From assembly GCA_946480915.1 (NCBI GenBank), contig CAMLLO010000045.1:1-35712 (forward strand): a DNA stretch of 35,712 nucleotides, in the 5' to 3' direction. Below the pieces are notes generated by a model that did not search any database, had not been told where the DNA came from, and was given only the letters and a program-made list of their open reading frames with translations. The DNA comes from an uncultured Sphingobacteriaceae bacterium (GTDB taxonomy: Bacteria > Bacteroidota > Bacteroidia > Sphingobacteriales > Sphingobacteriaceae). How positions within the stretch are numbered: position 1 is the stretch's first letter; each line of letters opens with the position of its first letter. Below, in pieces: positions 29,294 to 35,712 of the stretch. The position numbers were made by a program, and so were the translations under genes.

Positions 29294-29455
29294 GGGTTTT
29301 TGAGGTAATTTTTTATTTTTTTGGAAGATAGATTCTGAGGTTTGAAATGTTTAACAAAGAACATTCAGCTATAGCTGATTTTTGGTTGCAGGTGCCTTTT
29401 TAAAATGGGTTTTTGAGATGGCTTTATTGAGGTGTGTTTCGAACTTGGAAAATTT

Positions 29456-29527
29456 GCGTTAGGGATTGAAATGAAAATCCTTTTTGCCCTTCGCAAAAAG
29501 ATTGTAATGGAAAGCCCGCCCGAACGC
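29456..29527. repeat. 72-bp hairpin element with symmetric internal motifs
   Basis: The outer arms GCGTT (29456-29460) and AACGC (29523-29527) pair, with AGGG/CCC inside them. A central stem pairs TTTTTGC with GCAAAAA around a short loop. Between outer and central stems both sides carry the same motif, ATTGnAATGnAAA (from 29465 and from 29501). The design looks like a dispersed extragenic hairpin or a structured RNA; from memory similar sequences recur in Sphingobacteriaceae, which I could not check. It is not an attC: the arms run GTT...AAC, the reverse of attC order. Confidence 0.5.
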
Positions 29528-29905: not shown

Positions 29906-31513
29906 ATGAATGCAGAAAAAATTATCCATAATGGAATAGAGCGAATCAAGATAGATTTTCCTTACAACACCGAACTTGCTGCTCTGTTAAAGAAGATAGC
30001 TGATTGCCGCTGGAGCAGAACCCATAACGCCTGGCATATTCCGTATACAAAAGCGGCATTTGCTGAATTGAAAGCGATTTTTCCGGAGGTATGCTATAAA
30101 AAGAAGGAACCCGAAGTGACTGCAGAGCCAAGGGATGCAGAGCAGGCAACAACACCAATTTTGCGAAAAGATAGTATTTGTATTTATGTATCGGGAAGGA
30201 AGATAATACTGAAGATGCCTAAAAAGGATGTGGACGTAAAATTTTTATTGAGCCTGCGCTACTCAAAATGGGATGCTCAAAACAAGTGCTGGAACATTCC
30301 GTCGTATCCTGGAAACCTTGAACAGATAAAAGAGCATTTTGGGGTTAGAATAAGTGTGCTGGAAGAATGCGAGGAGGCGCCCAATGCGGGAGAAGGCGGT
30401 CGTTCGGTGCGTAAAACTGAGGTTTTGGTTATTAAAACAACTACCGGGAGGTTAAAGATCATTTTTGGTTTTCATAAACGATTAAGTGCTCTGATCCGGA
30501 CGATTCCCTATCATAGCTGGAATGCGCAAAATAAATGGTGGACGGTGCCCTATACCGATAAATTTCTGGAATTGATAAAAAGACAGTGTGAAGAAGATAG
30601 TTTGATTTTTAACTACGAGGAGGAAGAAAAGACAAATGATAAACTGGCACGTCTGACACCTTTTGATATACCAAATTACAGAACCTGCCCGCAAGAACTT
30701 ATAGATAAGCTTACCGAGCTAAGGTATAGCGAGAAAACGATAAAAACGTATAGTAATTCGTTTGAAGAGTTTATTAATTACTTCCACAAACACGATATAA
30801 ATAGTATTAATGAGAGTATGATTGTTTCGTTTTTGCGGCATTTGGTAACAGAGCGGAAGGTGTCATCGTCATACCAAAATCAGGCTATAAATGCGATAAA
30901 GTTTTATTACGAGCGGGTTTTAGGGGGACAGCGCAAGTTTTATTTTATTGAGAGGCCAATTACGGAGAAAGCGCTGCCGGTAGTTTTGAACAAGGAAGAG
31001 GTTATACGTATTTTAAATTCTACTGAAAATCAGAAGCACAGGGCGATGCTGATGCTGACCTACTCTTCGGGCTTGCAGGTGAGTGAGCTGTTGAATTTGA
31101 AGATTAAGGATGTCGACTCGGAGCGGATGCAATTGCGGGTAAGTCAGGCCAAGGGAAAAAAAGACCGATACACGATACTTAGCATGAAGGCGCTGGACAT
31201 GCTGAGGGTTTATTTTAGAAGCTACCACCCGAAGGAATGGCTATTTGAGGGTGTCGAGGGCGGTCAGTACAGCACGCGCAGCATTCAGGCTGTGATGCAG
31301 TATGCATGCAAGAAGGCTGGCCTATTGAAGAAGGTAAGCATGCACACGTTAAGACATTCGTTTGCTACCCATTTGTTAGAAAGTGGCACAGATTTGCGTT
31401 ATATACAGAGTTTATTGGGACATTCGTCGAGCAAAACCACCGAAATTTACACACATGTTACCACGAAGGGATTCAATCAGATTGTTAGCCCGCTGGATAA
31501 TTTGGATATGTGA
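29906..31513 (+). CDS. Tyrosine recombinase with three HARP-like repeats; putative non-canonical integron integrase
   Basis: The 535-residue recombinase has two parts. Residues 1-225 hold three repeats, each ending in a W-x6-W-x-(I/V)-P block: W36/W43, W122/W129 and W205/W212. The pattern (YNTELAALLKKI ... RWSRTHNAWHIP) resembles the HARP domain of SMARCAL1-type annealing helicases, which binds forked DNA. A core-binding domain (about 260-345) and catalytic domain (about 360-535) follow, with K416/K418, H480-T-L-R483, H506 and nucleophile Y515. The first catalytic Arg is replaced by Gln391 (GLQVSELL instead of GLRVSELL; CAG codon at 31076-31078). The ending SPLDNLDM recalls IntI proteins. No extra IntI-specific helix is seen between residues 430 and 480. 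Its position directly upstream of an attC array makes integron integrase the best call. Confidence 0.88.
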   Translation: MNAEKIIHNGIERIKIDFPYNTELAALLKKIADCRWSRTHNAWHIPYTKAAFAELKAIFPEVCYKKKEPEVTAEPRDAEQATTPILRKDSICIYVSGRKIILKMPKKDVDVKFLLSLRYSKWDAQNKCWNIPSYPGNLEQIKEHFGVRISVLEECEEAPNAGEGGRSVRKTEVLVIKTTTGRLKIIFGFHKRLSALIRTIPYHSWNAQNKWWTVPYTDKFLELIKRQCEEDSLIFNYEEEEKTNDKLARLTPFDIPNYRTCPQELIDKLTELRYSEKTIKTYSNSFEEFINYFHKHDINSINESMIVSFLRHLVTERKVSSSYQNQAINAIKFYYERVLGGQRKFYFIERPITEKALPVVLNKEEVIRILNSTENQKHRAMLMLTYSSGLQVSELLNLKIKDVDSERMQLRVSQAKGKKDRYTILSMKALDMLRVYFRSYHPKEWLFEGVEGGQYSTRSIQAVMQYACKKAGLLKKVSMHTLRHSFATHLLESGTDLRYIQSLLGHSSSKTTEIYTHVTTKGFNQIVSPLDNLDM

Positions 31514-31599
31514 TTTTATATGATTAATTATGTCTATGCGATGGCTGAAACTGTTAAAGGAAGAAAAATTTGGACCGACAATCAGCAATCAGATATATC

Positions 31600-31632
31600 G
31601 GATATTTGCGCATATGCGTAAATATGCTCGTT
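31600..31632 (+). other. Putative attI primary recombination site
   Basis: Cassette 1 begins with TT after G31630, so the crossover lies at 31630/31631, 117 bp after the recombinase stop. Just left of it, 31603-31624 is a near-perfect 22-bp palindrome (TATTT and AAATA outer arms, GCGCATATGC core, one mismatched pair). It could hold two inverted recombinase sites, as a simple attI or dif-like site does. ATATGC is repeated directly at 31612 and 31622. Position follows from the array; recombinase binding is inference. Confidence 0.65.
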
Positions 31633-32021
31633 ATACGGTATTGTCAGAAAAAGCAAAGCCTCTGCTGAAATCTAGTTCCTGTCCCGACGCTTTGCTCAGG
31701 CCGACGCTGAATAACCAGGTTTACCAGAAAGCCCAAGGGCCGATGCTTACACAGATCTTCTGCTTCGGTTAATGTCCTTTCGTTCTTTTTTCCCCTCGAC
31801 CTCAAGTCGGAGGGTTCTGTAGGTGCTAAAAATCTGCTTGGTTTTCATCGGACAAATGCTGCTAAAACTCAGGGGAATCTGATCCGAAGAACAACACCGT
31901 ATAACAATAAGTTTAAATTATGCCCGGCTGAGGTGGTTTTCGAACTGTTCTGCTTTTTACTTACTTTAGTGCTGGGCGACAAGATTGTGCATTTAATCGG
32001 GCACAATATAAACTAAACCCG
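31631..32021 (+). mobile_element. Integron cassette 1 (391 bp, no clear gene; identical to cassette 6)
   Basis: The cassette runs from the TT after G31630 to G32021. Its start GTTATACGG is the reverse complement of CCGTATAAC at the left edge of its attC, so both ends belong to one circular element. There is no ATG-started frame of useful length. A TTG-started 43-codon frame (31641-31772) begins 11 bp into the cassette, and CCCTC..GAC / GTCGGAGGG (31793-31814 region) can form a hairpin. A 33-codon frame lies on the opposite strand. It may carry a small peptide, an RNA or a promoter. An identical copy is cassette 6. Confidence 0.85.
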
Positions 32022-32023
32022 TT
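31897..32023 (+). repeat. attC site of cassette 1 (127 bp, long type)
   Basis: Left arm CCGTATAAC (31897-31905) pairs with the cassette's own start. Then come a 5-bp spacer and a long stem, GTTTAAATTATGCCCG (31911-31926) with CGGGCACAATATAAAC on the right. The loop side carries TTTAGTGCTGGGCGACA (about 31965-31981). It ends in GTT at 32021-32023. Confidence 0.9.
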
Positions 32024-32855
32024 GCCAGCAAGTGTAAAAAAACCGAACTAGCGGACTAATGACGACTTCAACGCTAAAACATGACGGAAGTGGTTAAGGC
32101 AGTTTAAAAACGGAAAAAGACAATAACGATAACAAATGAGGAAATTTCAGGTACTCTTCTTGTTTATTATATGCATTAGCTGCAAGCGTGAGACGGAATT
32201 TTTTACAGGCGAAATTCTATATAATTATTCCTTCTCTGAATTAAATGGAAAGGACATTACCGAACAAATGGTTCGCTATTATGGTCGGGAGAATCATTTC
32301 TTTATAAATGCTAAAAACTATAAGTCATATAATGAAAATTCCAAAATCACCGGGCTATATAATAGCAGTTCAAATACCTACTATATGTTCTTAGAGAATA
32401 ATAGCGTAGAAAAGTTAGATGCATCAAAGGTTACAACAAGTTCACCATTGGTTACGAAATTGCCGGAGAAGGAAAAGGTTTTAGGGTATGAGTGCAGTGC
32501 CATTAATATCGAATCAGATTCTCGAACCATCACGTATTATTATTCACCCAAGGTTAAGGTCAATCCGAAGCCCTTTTTGCATCATAAACTTAATGAGTGG
32601 GGGCTATTTCTCATAGCGTCAGACGGTGCACTGCCATTGAAATGGGTCGAAACTGATCTAGTAGGAATTATTCGAACAGCCGTTGCTGTGAAGATTAGAC
32701 CGGTCCAACTTAATGACAGCGACTTTTCATACGTTAAATTTGACAAATAGAAGTATGACAGGTACAAGCGGACTAGAAAAACACCAGCTGGCAACAAATA
32801 GTTTGCGCTATCTTCCTGCCCACATTGGCGACACGCACAGCGCAAACTATAAACG
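32022..32855 (+). mobile_element. Integron cassette 2 (834 bp, lipoprotein-like gene)
   Basis: Start GTTGCCAGC matches the reverse complement of GCTGGCAAC at 32787-32795, the left arm of its attC. It contains one gene (32136-32750) with a 114-bp leader, the longest of the array, leaving room for an internal promoter, although no TAnnTTTG box was recognised. Confidence 0.9.
32136..32750 (+). CDS. Cassette-encoded putative lipoprotein, function unknown
   Basis: The 204-residue protein begins with a hydrophobic signal (MRKFQVLFLFIICISC); Cys16 is a likely lipidation site, though the lipobox is not ideal. The mature part is beta-rich and Tyr/Ser/Asn-rich. It includes EKEKVLGYECSAINIESDSRTITYYYSPKVKVNPKPF and GALPLKWVETDLVG, which loosely recall DUF4412/GLPGLI-type periplasmic proteins of Bacteroidota. 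I would not assign a family. It is the only gene of cassette 2 and reads in the array direction. Confidence 0.85.
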   Translation: MRKFQVLFLFIICISCKRETEFFTGEILYNYSFSELNGKDITEQMVRYYGRENHFFINAKNYKSYNENSKITGLYNSSSNTYYMFLENNSVEKLDASKVTTSSPLVTKLPEKEKVLGYECSAINIESDSRTITYYYSPKVKVNPKPFLHHKLNEWGLFLIASDGALPLKWVETDLVGIIRTAVAVKIRPVQLNDSDFSYVKFDK

Positions 32856-32857
32856 TT
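32787..32857 (+). repeat. attC site of cassette 2 (71 bp, short type)
   Basis: GCTGGCAAC (32787-32795), a 5-bp spacer, GTTTGCGCT, a loop, AGCGCAAAC, a 7-bp spacer and GTT (32855-32857). The inner stem is a perfect 9-10 bp, and the TTGGCGAC block in the loop is shared with the attC of cassette 5. Confidence 0.92.
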
Positions 32858-33293
32858 AGTGGCAAGTGTAACAGCATACGTACAACCGACAAAGCAAAGA
32901 AGAACTAACGACTAAATATCGAAAACCGGAAAATGACCATTTACAGAAAAATTGGTATCGGAATGATTATTATGGGTGTCATTATGTTATTTGTAGGAGG
33001 TTCGCTTTTTGGCTATCAAGGACCAAGTCTAAATCCTATAATTAGCGACATTGGAATGTACTCATTTTTACTTTGGTTGCCGACCTTAATAACAGGAATA
33101 ATTTTAACGCGTGCGAACAAGTAATGTCAAACATCTATAGGGGAAGCGAATGTACAAAAAACACCGTGCCACTAACATAGGGTTTAAATTATGCCCGGGC
33201 GACGTGAATCTCGTTCCTTTCTTCTTTTTAATTACTTTAGTGCTGGGTGACAGGTGACCGCCTTTAATCGGGCACAACCTAAACCCTTAACCG
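32856..33293 (+). mobile_element. Integron cassette 3 (438 bp, small membrane protein gene)
   Basis: Start GTTAGTGGCA is the reverse complement of TGCCACTAAC at 33167-33176 in its attC. One gene (32933-33124) is flanked by about 77 bp of leader and about 43 bp before the attC. Confidence 0.9.
32933..33124 (+). CDS. Cassette-encoded small membrane protein, function unknown
   Basis: The 63-residue protein has two hydrophobic segments, about residues 6-27 (IGIGMIIMGVIMLFVGGSLFGY) and 41-58 (MYSFLLWLPTLITGIILT), with a short loop between and a basic C-terminus (RANK). Two-helix hairpins of this size are common in cassette arrays, but no family is recognised. It starts at the only ATG compatible with the frame and is the sole gene of cassette 3. 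Confidence 0.8.
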   Translation: MTIYRKIGIGMIIMGVIMLFVGGSLFGYQGPSLNPIISDIGMYSFLLWLPTLITGIILTRANK

Positions 33294-33295
33294 TT
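33167..33295 (+). repeat. attC site of cassette 3 (129 bp, long type)
   Basis: TGCCACTAAC (33167-33176) is followed by GGGTTTAAATTATGCCCG, pairing with CGGGCACAACCTAAACCC near the right end; the site ends in GTT at 33293-33295. The loop side carries TTTAGTGCTGGGTGACAG. It is about 90% identical to the attC of cassette 7. Confidence 0.92.
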
Positions 33296-33922
33296 AGGCA
33301 CAATAAAAACAACCAGACCAGATGCAAATACGACACTACGTTTTATCACTTTGTTTATCAGGAATGATACTCATAAATATCAGTCAGGCTCAAACAACAA
33401 ACCCGTCTGACCAAAAGGTACTTGAAGGTATTCAAAAATCTCATATCGACGGAAATGTTCCGAAAAAGACCAAGTTCGATACTTTTCTGAAACGTGACCT
33501 TGAAAAACACTTTTCGAGCACATATGGCAAAGTAAGCGTAAAATGGGAGTATTTGCGTGAAGCCCCTACGCAAAGTGGCGTTGCTTATCCGAAATATTAT
33601 CTATGGACAAAGCTATATAATGGAGAAAATATGTTGACTGAAGGGGCGGTTCGAGTTGCTGCAATAGAGAAAATTAATTTTGAAGTAACAGACTTTGTGA
33701 GTATTGAAGAACTCAAGAATAAAACCAAGGACATTTATACCATATTTCCGGTGCCTGTTTGTGAAAAGATATTAAGTCGACTATAAAATTTACTGTGCCT
33801 AACACAGCCTTTGCAAAAATGGCTGGCGACGTTTATCTCGAACTTTTTCTACATTTAACTAAGTTTTTGTGCTGGGGACAGTGAAGTGCTTTCTATCCGC
33901 CATCTTCGCAAAGCCCTAACCG
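33294..33922 (+). mobile_element. Integron cassette 4 (629 bp, secreted protein gene)
   Basis: Start GTTAGGCACA corresponds to the reverse complement of TGTGCCTAAC at 33794-33803 in its attC. One gene starts 29 bp into the cassette (33322) and ends 8 bp before the attC arm. Confidence 0.9.
33322..33786 (+). CDS. Cassette-encoded secreted protein, function unknown
   Basis: The 154-residue protein has a signal peptide (MQIRHYVLSLCLSGMILINISQAQ) with likely cleavage near residue 24. The mature region is a small mixed alpha/beta domain: FDTFLKRDLEKHFSSTYGKVSVKWEYLREAP, then YPKYYLWTKLYNGENMLTEGAVRVAAIEKINFEVTDFVS. The segment order (helix, then a four-strand-like run) resembles NTF2- or cystatin-like folds, but this is only an impression. 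No family is assigned. Confidence 0.85.
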   Translation: MQIRHYVLSLCLSGMILINISQAQTTNPSDQKVLEGIQKSHIDGNVPKKTKFDTFLKRDLEKHFSSTYGKVSVKWEYLREAPTQSGVAYPKYYLWTKLYNGENMLTEGAVRVAAIEKINFEVTDFVSIEELKNKTKDIYTIFPVPVCEKILSRL

Positions 33923-33924
33923 TT
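33794..33924 (+). repeat. attC site of cassette 4 (131 bp, long type)
   Basis: TGTGCCTAAC (33794-33803); GCCTTTGCAAAAATGGC pairs with GCCATCTTCGCAAAGCCC near the right end; then GTT at 33922-33924. Loop block TTTTTGTGCTGGGGACAG is a divergent version of the one in the other long sites. Confidence 0.92.
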
Positions 33925-34517
33925 AGGCAACATTTTAAAAACCTATCCCTTTGACAAAAGACCGACCAAATCAGGACGAAAAAATTGCCGAGCTTACTAA
34001 ATATTTTGACTTGGTAACGGTGACAATTGACTATAGCTTGGAAAATCCGTTAATGAAAATTATATCGGCTGACTTCGATTCCGACCAACATTATGCGAGC
34101 TTAAAAATTCAGGCGGAGGAACATTTTAAAAAAGGCAGACTAACCAAACTTAAACAATGGTTTAGGGACTTGACAGAAATGTATATTGAAAATGGTGACC
34201 TTAAGTTTAATCAGTACTTAAAGAGCAGAACCAATTATGAAATCGACATTTTTGAATCTTATTTTAAACGTGTTGACCAAATAATTGAAACTGGTAAAAT
34301 TAAATCAGATAGTCAGTTTTACAAAATCAATTCAATGGTTAACCAACTTTGCCAGCTTGACTCCGTTGACTCTGAGAAAATTGAAACATTAAATAAATTG
34401 TTGAGAGATTATGAACAACGCAAAACTCGCTAGACAAAAAAAACGTTGCCTAACACATATTTTGCGCTATTTCCCAAACGCTCTTTTGGCGACCGCTCAC
34501 AGCGCAAACTATCAACG
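33923..34517 (+). mobile_element. Integron cassette 5 (595 bp, small cytosolic protein gene)
   Basis: Start GTTAGGCAAC is the exact reverse complement of GTTGCCTAAC at 34445-34454 in its attC. Its start shares GTTAGGCA with cassette 4, but the two attC sites are of different types. One gene fills most of it. Confidence 0.9.
33951..34433 (+). CDS. Cassette-encoded helical protein, function unknown (TTG start)
   Basis: The 160-residue, mostly helical, charged protein (MTKDRPNQDEKIAELTKYFDLVTV ... EEHFKKGRLTKLKQWFRDLTEMYIENG ... LNKLLRDYEQRKTR) has no export signal. The start is taken as TTG at 33951, 29 bp into the cassette, because the next ATG is about 33 codons inside and would remove a well-formed helix. 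The stop lies 11 bp before the attC. No family is recognised; an immunity or regulatory role would be guesswork. Confidence 0.75.
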   Translation: MTKDRPNQDEKIAELTKYFDLVTVTIDYSLENPLMKIISADFDSDQHYASLKIQAEEHFKKGRLTKLKQWFRDLTEMYIENGDLKFNQYLKSRTNYEIDIFESYFKRVDQIIETGKIKSDSQFYKINSMVNQLCQLDSVDSEKIETLNKLLRDYEQRKTR

Positions 34518-34519
34518 TT
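34445..34519 (+). repeat. attC site of cassette 5 (75 bp, short type)
   Basis: GTTGCCTAAC (34445-34454), then TTTGCGCT pairing with AGCGCAAA, and GTT at 34517-34519. It shares TTGGCGACCGCTCACAGCGC-like loop and stem sequence with the attC of cassette 2. Confidence 0.92.
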
Positions 34520-34908
34520 ATACGGTATTGTCAGAAAAAGCAAAGCCTCTGCTGAAATCTAGTTCCTGTCCCGACGCTTTGCTCAGGCCGACGCTGAATA
34601 ACCAGGTTTACCAGAAAGCCCAAGGGCCGATGCTTACACAGATCTTCTGCTTCGGTTAATGTCCTTTCGTTCTTTTTTCCCCTCGACCTCAAGTCGGAGG
34701 GTTCTGTAGGTGCTAAAAATCTGCTTGGTTTTCATCGGACAAATGCTGCTAAAACTCAGGGGAATCTGATCCGAAGAACAACACCGTATAACAATAAGTT
34801 TAAATTATGCCCGGCTGAGGTGGTTTTCGAACTGTTCTGCTTTTTACTTACTTTAGTGCTGGGCGACAAGATTGTGCATTTAATCGGGCACAATATAAAC
34901 TAAACCCG
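34518..34908 (+). mobile_element. Integron cassette 6 (391 bp, exact copy of cassette 1)
   Basis: Identity with cassette 1 begins at C34516 and ends at T34910: 395 bp, no mismatch or gap seen, constant offset of 2887. The flanks differ on both sides immediately outside the CGTT and GTT boundaries. That is exactly what site-specific cassette insertion gives and not what IS transposition would leave. There are no terminal repeats, no transposase and no target duplication. Confidence 0.93.
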
Positions 34909-34910
34909 TT
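34784..34910 (+). repeat. attC site of cassette 6 (127 bp, copy of the attC of cassette 1)
   Basis: Identical to 31897-32023, ending with GTT at 34908-34910. The base right after GTT changes to the start of cassette 7. Confidence 0.92.
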
Positions 34911-35660
34911 ATGTGCCACTTTAAAAACCCGAATAAACGCCTATGACAAGAACAACAAAACCCTTAATTATAGTTATAGGACTGTTTTGTATGTTGTGGG
35001 GATGCGAAGAATGTTTTAGACGGAAAATCGGTGGTTTTGCAGGAAGCTACCCTTTTGTTGAGACATGGAAACTAAATGCAAGTGAACAAGACGTTGTTGA
35101 GGCAATTAAAGAATTAAAAAGAGAAAATCCATCATTACGGCCGCCTAACGAAAAGGAATTTACCTCAACCAGAGACACAGGGTACGTTTGGGAAAGCCTA
35201 GAAATGATTGAATATAAAGAAAAGTTAAAGGTAGACTCGACAACACCATTGCCTGAACATAGCGACCAAAATTCTCATAATAGTGATTATTGGCTCTATA
35301 TAGACTTTTATTATCCGGATACACGAGAAGTAGTTCAAACTTGGACGAGGCCGGATGTTGATAGCACCAAGACCAGGCTTGCCCTGGTAGGGTTTAGTGA
35401 CCTCAATAATCCTGAAAGCTCCCGACTAATAAATCGTGACTTTTGGTATCTGGCCAATAAAAAACAAATTAACAAATTCCAGAAAACTATTGTCGACCGA
35501 ATTCAAGAAAAGCTTGATAGAAAAAAGAAAAGCGGCACATAACATAGGGTTTAGGTTATGCCCGGGCGGCGTGAAACTCGTCCTTTTCTTCTTTTTAATT
35601 ACTTTAGTGCTGGGTGACAGTGACCGCCCCTTAATCGGGCACAACCTAAACCCTTAACCG
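34909..35660 (+). mobile_element. Integron cassette 7 (752 bp, lipoprotein gene)
   Basis: Start GTTATGTGCC is the exact reverse complement of GGCACATAAC at 35534-35543 in its attC. The gene's TAA stop (35540-35542) lies inside that attC arm, so coding sequence and recombination site overlap. Confidence 0.92.
34943..35542 (+). CDS. Cassette-encoded lipoprotein, function unknown
   Basis: The 199-residue protein has a lipoprotein signal (MTRTTKPLIIVIGLFCMLWGC) with a good lipobox, L-W-G-C21. The mature chain is charged. It includes SEQDVVEAIKELKRENPSLRPPNEKEF, a Tyr/Trp-rich strand region (NSDYWLYIDFYYPDTREVVQTWTRPD) and a basic helical tail (FQKTIVDRIQEKLDRKKKSGT). No family is recognised. The start is 34 bp into the cassette and the stop overlaps the attC arm. 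Confidence 0.85.
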   Translation: MTRTTKPLIIVIGLFCMLWGCEECFRRKIGGFAGSYPFVETWKLNASEQDVVEAIKELKRENPSLRPPNEKEFTSTRDTGYVWESLEMIEYKEKLKVDSTTPLPEHSDQNSHNSDYWLYIDFYYPDTREVVQTWTRPDVDSTKTRLALVGFSDLNNPESSRLINRDFWYLANKKQINKFQKTIVDRIQEKLDRKKKSGT

Positions 35661-35662
35661 TT
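35534..35662 (+). repeat. attC site of cassette 7 (129 bp, long type)
   Basis: GGCACATAAC (35534-35543); GGGTTTAGGTTATGCCCG pairs with CGGGCACAACCTAAACCC (17 of 18 positions), with a second inner stem GGGCGG/CCGCCC; GTT at 35660-35662. Loop block TTTAGTGCTGGGTGACAG is present. Confidence 0.92.
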
Positions 35663-35712
35663 ATGCGCAACCATAAAACTCATGACCAACTTCGAGGAAA
35701 TAAATAATTACG
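35661..35712 (+). mobile_element. Integron cassette 8, 5' end only
   Basis: It starts with TT after G35660 (GTTATGCGCAACC). The partner arm should read GGTTGCGCATAAC or similar downstream of the window. An ATG at 35682 opens a new gene. The array therefore continues past the window. Confidence 0.8.
35682..35712 (+). CDS. 5' end of the gene in cassette 8 (partial)
   Basis: ATG 22 bp into the cassette opens a frame reading MTNFEEINNY up to the window end. The distance from the cassette start matches those of cassettes 4, 5 and 7 (28-34 bp). Function cannot be judged from ten residues. Confidence 0.55.
   Translation, partial: MTNFEEINNY

Follow-up and report, generated by a model that had tools for sequence, protein, structure and literature searches.

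A widespread integron-like cassette system in Bacteroidota, probably run by a tyrosine recombinase outside the IntI family

A start at GTT and a private complementarity between the two cassette ends are hallmarks of integrons, and the R boxes of classical cassette sites (attC) follow the consensus RYYYAAC/GTTRRRY. The sites of Xer/dif and pdif modules are short (~28 bp) double-stranded sequences recombined by XerC together with XerD. Reviews count Bacteroidota among the integron phyla (PMC8618304); the IntegronFinder 2.0 paper names a single complete integron in Bacteroidetes, that of Salinibacter ruber, apart from others in Chlorobi and Ignavibacteriae, and credits an earlier IntegronFinder survey with only In0 elements in Bacteroidetes (PMC9024848). 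Here we analyze a stretch of 35,712 nucleotides from an uncultured Sphingobacteriaceae bacterium (assembly GCA_946480915.1, contig CAMLLO010000045.1; the whole stretch is called the window below), in which a row of GTT-bounded cassettes lies behind a tyrosine recombinase gene.

The IntI-specific insertion, the I2 helix (patch III), is held to have made single-strand cassette recombination possible and is said to be absent from every other protein (PMC7790495). An archaeal integron paper names the IntI-specific domain as necessary (PMC9668308). A tyrosine-recombinase survey notes incomplete conservation of the insertion within its integron-like subgroup (PMC8138268), which may include the recombinase family described here. 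Among the open-licence papers searched, no title or abstract was found that describes either a cassette recombinase without I2 or this family.

Our comparisons indicate, with a probability of roughly 0.83, that the window carries a representative of an integron-like cassette system that is widespread and is run by a tyrosine recombinase other than IntI. The system works like an integron and is not an IntI integron. With IntI integrons it shares GTT-bounded, mostly one-gene cassettes with private complementarity of their ends, hairpin sites that all point one way, a platform site beside the recombinase gene from which turnover proceeds, the occurrence of gene-less cassettes, and a recombinase gene that is either co-directional or divergent. 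It differs in a recombinase family that lacks the I2 insertion and carries extra N-terminal HARP-like repeats, and in sites that lack extrahelical bases, have C before GTT and A after AAC, rarely fit the R-box consensus and here mostly span 115-121.

The cassette array and its turnover

Seven cassettes stand back to back at 31630-35659, beginning 116 bp after the recombinase stop. Each starts with GTT plus six or seven private bases, and the exact reverse complement of this start opens the 3' hairpin site of the same cassette; the pairs are 10 nt long in cassettes 1, 3, 4, 5, 6, and 7 and 9 nt long in cassette 2. The original prediction, made from the window alone, had named six distinct pairs of 9-10 nt and hairpin-forming sites. 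All six pairs are present where they had been placed, and in 7/7 cassettes the partner ends in AAC and is followed by a hairpin that folds back to the next GTT, giving a gapless chain. Private pairs of at least 9 nt number 38 in the whole window; eight of them are linked to a hairpin, every one inside the array, namely those of the seven cassettes and one further pair linking the start of cassette 1 with the end of its copy, cassette 6. No hairpin-linked private pair was found in bases 1-31500 on either strand. In 500 trials in which the 4.2-kb array was resampled with a first-order Markov model, cassette calls averaged 0.016 and a chained pair never appeared.

Cassettes 1 and 6, which had been equated from the outset, are 100% identical over 391 bp, exactly from GTT to GTT, and the DNA outside them differs on both sides. 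A further exact duplicate cassette, identical throughout its 773 bp, was found in a related locus (L078). The expectation of seven cassettes was borne out, all seven being complete; a gene is present in only five, the pair 1/6 lacking any ATG open reading frame (ORF) of more than 33 aa; in addition, an eighth cassette starts at 35660.

Cassette content is swapped at C|GTT between congeners. Between Belliella kenyensis and B. aquatica (L026/L027), 9389 of 11365 bp of upstream flank and recombinase align, the six best pieces being 74-80% identical, and none of the arrays does. In a third Belliella genome, compared with B. aquatica (G007/G169), the recombinase is 93% identical and 118 of 119 nt are identical through the recombinase tail, the homologous leader and CGTT, with divergence at the next base. 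The blastn piece covering tail and leader extends 23 nt past GTT, and no further plus-strand blastn match (E<=1e-8) was obtained in the 19.9 kb beyond CGTT. The prediction had stated that gene content fixed at the GTT positions in relatives would speak against it; in Belliella the recombinase and leader are kept and the cassettes differ from GTT on, a pattern from which new cassettes appear to integrate at a platform site beside the recombinase gene. In five further Belliella genomes the upstream flank is preserved, and no recombinase match was obtained. Ten pairwise comparisons of five Arenibacter genomes gave 22-38 common nt among the 40 that precede the first GTT vs 10-20 among the 40 that follow it; G018 and G177 agree over 12 nt from GTT onwards, and where the pairs are more distant the leader has diverged as well. 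The body of window cassette 5 is 72% identical over 474 nt to an Aquiflexum cassette (L018:12244-12894) that carries a different site.

The attI-like leader of the window (31514-31629, plus strand) lies between the recombinase stop and cassette 1. It contains a 24-bp dyad, ATATTTGCGCATATGCGTAAATAT, at 31602-31625, which ends 4 nt before the first GTT (p 0.005 vs shuffles). A Bacteroidota promoter motif is absent from array and leader, the only matches in the window lying at 760 and 20696; among 18 other leaders it matched one (L075).

All cassettes lie on the plus strand, and the bottom strand of their attC-like sites folds, so that the sites are assigned to the minus strand; site coordinates take in 9 nt of each R box. 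Cassette 1 (31630-32020) has no ORF, and its site (31897-32029) scores 81.4 bits with the covariance model described below; its exact copy, cassette 6 (34517-34907), has a site at 34784-34916 (82.9 bits). The fold of this gene-less unit is not unusual (z -0.14 and 0.34). In Vibrionaceae, cassettes that lack a gene but have promoter activity have been described (PMC11014356) and offer a parallel. Cassette 2 (32021-32854) carries an ORF of 204 aa (32136-32750) with a weak, below-cut-off similarity to DUF4412, and a short site (32787-32863, span 59), which the long-site model missed, as it did the short site (34446-34525, span 62) of cassette 5 (33922-34516; ORF 33951-34433, 160 aa from TTG). Cassette 3 (32855-33292) has an ORF of 63 aa (32933-33124) and a site at 33168-33301 (85.5 bits), cassette 4 (33293-33921) an ORF of 154 aa (33322-33786) and a site at 33795-33930 (80.5 bits), and cassette 7 (34908-35659) an ORF of 199 aa (34943-35542) and a site at 35535-35668 (88.5 bits). 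Of the eighth cassette only the start is seen (35660-35712), 53 bp before the window ends.

The attC-like sites

The N-terminal 260 residues of the window recombinase drew 82 proteins, and a 43-protein alignment gave 571 related genome loci, of which the best 80 were kept. With the same detector, which looks for a private pair plus a hairpin and demands AAC and GTT, 114 cassettes were found in 32 loci including the window, all selected by private complementarity; two of them overlap in L080. The AAC-to-GTT span was 112-122 in 92 of 108 collected sites. Of 91 different long sites, 78 entered one alignment, from which near-copies were left out, and 75 the final one, which also omits three L009 sites with G instead of A after AAC.

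In the bottom-strand alignment of the 75 sites, 22 pairs were found, with 91.3% of the cells paired. Both sides had changed in 472 cells vs 167 expected from shuffles, and 0/500 shuffles reached as high a value; the signal was lost when the partner was slid by 1-3 columns. Since the paired positions covary, the hairpin itself is under selection. The bottom strand folds more stably in 77/91 sites, or 84/91 when the arms alone are counted. An outer G.T wobble of the bottom strand (AACG...TGTT, that is, C before GTT and A after AAC in the top strand) occurs in 86/92 long sites and in 75/75 of the aligned ones, five of the six exceptions lying in L009 and one being an alternative start of an L080 site. 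An inner, second G.T wobble is kept in 66/75 sites, and both wobbles become A.C mismatches in the top strand. Among all collected sites, C precedes GTT in 106/108 and A follows AAC in 99/108, and classical R boxes are rare (GTTRRRY in 11/108, RYYYAAC in 14/108).

The arms are of equal length in 70/75 long sites and the bulge column is empty in 72/75; because of the equal arms, the extrahelical bases of classical attC are absent. In two of four classical sites at IntI loci, extrahelical bulges are visible by eye in the folds. At IntI loci (15 and 25 stretches) the pair-plus-hairpin detector yielded few chained sites, and for this reason no classical covariance model was built.

A covariance model of the long sites matched 7/10 held-out loci. 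No match was obtained in 21 partly overlapping stretches at IntI loci, and five IntI genomes (G063, G050, G144, G081, and G089), which serve as negatives, gave no match at E<=0.01. Over 81 loci, the model produced 165 matches of one polarity relative to the recombinase, 159 of them 3' and six 5' of it; all six belong to L075, the other upstream flanks being match-free and likewise serving as negatives. Rfam at gathering thresholds gave no attC-type match in the window; the only match there was a Flavo-1 RNA (RF01705, 55.2 bits) at 29451-29525, between purH and the recombinase gene. Other types of site, unmatched by the long-site model, occur as arrays or single cassettes at L009:13942-19207 (G after AAC) and, with a span of 76, at L036:4185-5035 and L048:4137-4986.

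The recombinase family and its distribution

As had been predicted, a tyrosine recombinase gene lies upstream of the array in the same direction (29906-31513, plus strand). Its product of 535 aa has three N-terminal HARP-like repeats (~residues 1-240), a SAM-like domain and a catalytic domain. Its score with the integron integrase profile TIGR02249 is 218.3 bits, under the cut-off of 265. The I2 insertion is absent: 71-76 residues separate the two flanking patches in 76/76 family members, vs 113 in 10/10 IntI and 72-79 in 8/8 Xer-type proteins. A usable ORF was available from 76 of 81 loci (none from L037, L038, L045, L060, and L068) and from all but two (L114 and L117) of the ten Xer stretches. 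The catalytic set R, K, H, R, H, Y is complete in the family, the window copy deviating at the first R alone. In a tree of 71 of 94 recombinases, which leaves out roughly every second family member with a low number as well as short sequences, the family is placed beside IntI and not within it, and host XerC/D form a separate clade (100/100, long branches). The family thus resembles XerA/XerC/XerD in a catalytic domain without the IntI insertion and a patch region of similar length, and differs from them as a clade of its own that is linked to cassette arrays and carries N-terminal repeats. From Xer/dif and pdif modules the system differs also in its sites, 92/108 being hairpins of span 112-122, and in that host XerC/D belong to another clade.

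The family N-terminus resembles HARP-type DNA-binding repeats as judged from profile matches, with a HARP (PF07443) match of some kind in 18/19 N-termini and a best E of 2.4e-8. The HARP domain of SMARCAL1, the damage-recognition domain of XPB and the mismatch-binding domain of MutS are among the nearest known likenesses. Foldseek with a structure model of the N-terminus returned no match at E<=0.001, and among the VIA-align rows for this model unrelated folds (eIF1, CASTOR1) scored a similar Z too.

Nearly all of the best 80 of 571 loci are labelled as Bacteroidota groups, a few as Neomarinimicrobiota, Delongbacteria, or Armatimonadetes, and a few as Bifidobacterium, probably by mislabelling. 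Contigs break within 500 bp of the recombinase on its 3' side in 28/81 loci and on its 5' side in 2/81, an excess that repeats would cause. Where at least 4 kb of downstream sequence was present, 32/35 loci carry site-model matches. Of 105 cassettes whose longest ORF reaches 80 aa, 102 have it on the plus strand, i.e., in the recombinase direction.

From the class to which Arundinibacter belongs, an even sample of 119 genomes was taken; with 27 site candidates scored per genome, the site model at E<=1e-6 matched 94 of them. The statement that few integrons are described in this phylum was therefore an understatement. The family recombinase was found at E<=1e-75 in 60 of the same genomes, and sites co-occur with it, being present in 59/60 recombinase-positive genomes vs 35/59 others (Fisher 4e-8). 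Among the matches listed, 20 contigs show both, and in 18 of these the sites point away from the recombinase, which is co-directional in 13 and divergent in 5. The divergent arrangement, as in classical integrons, is seen on contigs G260:C7, G287:C1, G225:C9, G247:C23, and G027:C2. The phyla of two loci from metagenome-assembled genomes (MAGs) hold sites too (21/58 and 24/61 genomes), which means that either the system extends past Bacteroidota or these MAGs are mixtures. True IntI exceeded the cut-off in 46/148 genomes of the GTDB phylum. One 16-kb stretch (L165 in G025) contains a true IntI gene (374-aa frame) and, 3.7-6.4 kb to the 5' side of this gene, four sites of the family type; no family recombinase was present among the frames of at least 150 aa in the stretch.

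On plasmids of Acinetobacter and an uncultured bacterium, tet(X3) lies directly 3' of a truncated recombinase annotated as 'TnpF' or xerD (L081:6052-8200 and L082:2967-5117). This protein is 77% identical over 238 residues to a family member (L021) and lacks the N-terminus. An attI-like dyad and GTT precede tet(X3), and half an attC-like site follows it, which matches the site of L023 (blastn E 6e-7) and is cut off by unrelated DNA. Neither private complementarity nor a site-model match was found at the tet(X3) loci. One study reports no match between the Flavobacteriaceae and Acinetobacter contexts (PMC7494873); the recombinase locus beside tet(X3) may be the missing link between them.

Competing explanations and implications

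Several observations weigh against a cassette system run by this recombinase family. The AAC and GTT of the sites carry no evidential weight, because the detector required both, though not the remainder of the site. Negative controls for the site model are limited, since other phyla that were tried proved positive. Three of the 35 loci with at least 4 kb downstream (L009, L025, and L053) have no model match; L009 nevertheless has an array, with other-looking sites. The pairing of sites and recombinase is not one to one, as 35/59 genomes without a recombinase match at E<=1e-75 have sites, and two contigs, G219:C88 and G069:C16 (the latter with recombinase and sites 142 kb apart), break the outward-pointing pattern. 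The dyad before the first GTT is significant (p<=0.05) in 16/29 loci, hence not in all. The HARP match of the window protein reaches 16.9 bits vs the Pfam gathering score of 25, and HARP was listed for only 2/10 other family members scanned. Furthermore, residue 391 of the window recombinase is Q at the position of the first catalytic arginine, which is kept in 42/42 other aligned proteins, 75/75 other loci, 10/10 IntI, and 8/8 Xer-type proteins. Tyrosine recombinases that lose this arginine usually become inactive. The copy in the window is therefore probably inactive too, unless the residue has been misread or its array is mobilised in trans; recent activity is suggested by the identical cassettes 1 and 6, and Q391 would then be a fresh loss, a read error, or the mark of an array served in trans.

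Unlikely, in our view, is ordinary double-stranded Xer-type recombination at palindromic sites, with the hairpins as symmetric binding sites or cruciforms and not single-strand substrates. An Xer-like recombinase core without I2 and the dyad in the attI-like region of 16/29 loci would fit this view, but one strand folds better in 84/91 sites by its arms, polarity is uniform, and the two bottom-strand wobbles are kept (86/92 outer, 66/75 inner) although they are A.C mismatches in the top strand. Moreover, the 17-pair L stem with its long loop is larger than an Xer core site, and the private R stems match fully only in a circular cassette. An ordinary IntI integron, or a cluster of attC sites lacking an integron integrase (CALIN), whose classical cassettes are moved by an IntI encoded elsewhere while the neighbouring recombinase is a bystander, appears very unlikely. 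It draws on the presence of true IntI in 46/148 genomes of the phylum, on site-model matches at E<=0.01 in 9/14 IntI genomes, including the four sites 5' of IntI in G025, and on the integron hallmarks of private complementarity and GTT start. However, IntI exceeds the cut-off in 0/20 genomes holding family loci, the model found nothing in the 21 IntI stretches, only 11/108 sites fit GTTRRRY and the sites lack extrahelical bases; by contrast, 59/60 genomes with the non-IntI recombinase have sites, and the arrays begin just 3' of it. We regard as hardly credible a static gene row between repeats, in which homologous recombination among the repeats and ordinary gene turnover made the duplications and differences. 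The sites of one locus do resemble each other, yet adjacent window sites belong to unlike types, both borders of the duplicate units fall exactly on GTT, the Belliella identity stops at CGTT, and private complementarity would have no reason to exist in such a row.

The designation of the locus as a chromosomal integron can accordingly be kept insofar as its cassettes are mobile, bounded by GTT and placed behind a tyrosine recombinase, in DNA of the Bacteroidota type. It has to be given up for the IntI kind, in view of a profile score of 218 bits vs 265, the missing insertion, sites without extrahelical bases that mostly miss the R-box consensus, and a position in the tree beside IntI.

For the integron-like system run by the family recombinase, the following course is proposed from the sequences. 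A cassette is one DNA segment, usually with one gene, that has GTT and a private extension at its start and the site at its end. The bottom strand of the site folds into an R stem (AAC/GTT plus the private bases), an asymmetric unpaired spacer, the L stem of 17 pairs and a long loop, and in the circular cassette the R stem is perfectly paired. A recombinase, presumably the adjacent one, would join the bottom-strand hairpin to a double-stranded attI-like site just 3' of its own gene, or to a second hairpin, with the joint at C|GTT or beside it. The comparisons show the borders of the cassettes, the exact doubling of a unit, the exchange of content at C|GTT between congeners, the covariation and polarity of the sites, and their co-occurrence with the recombinase family. 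We infer that the adjacent recombinase does the chemistry, that a single bottom strand is its substrate, and that the HARP-like repeats and the conserved G.T wobbles may replace the I2 helix and the extrahelical bases.

At about even odds, the system would be a second kind of integron in Bacteroidota and neighbouring phyla, occurring in the majority of species of the class: an I2-less sister lineage of IntI, acting on folded single-stranded sites without extrahelical bases, with HARP/MutS-like repeats and G.T wobbles serving to read the hairpin, and the route by which tet(X)-like genes first left the class. It also provides a possible source for the 'xerD' next to tet(X3). A widespread cassette system whose recombinase lacks I2 would imply that single-strand cassette recombination can be achieved in more than one way, or would reveal the state before I2, and it would mean that Bacteroidota hold a large uncharted pool of mobile genes.

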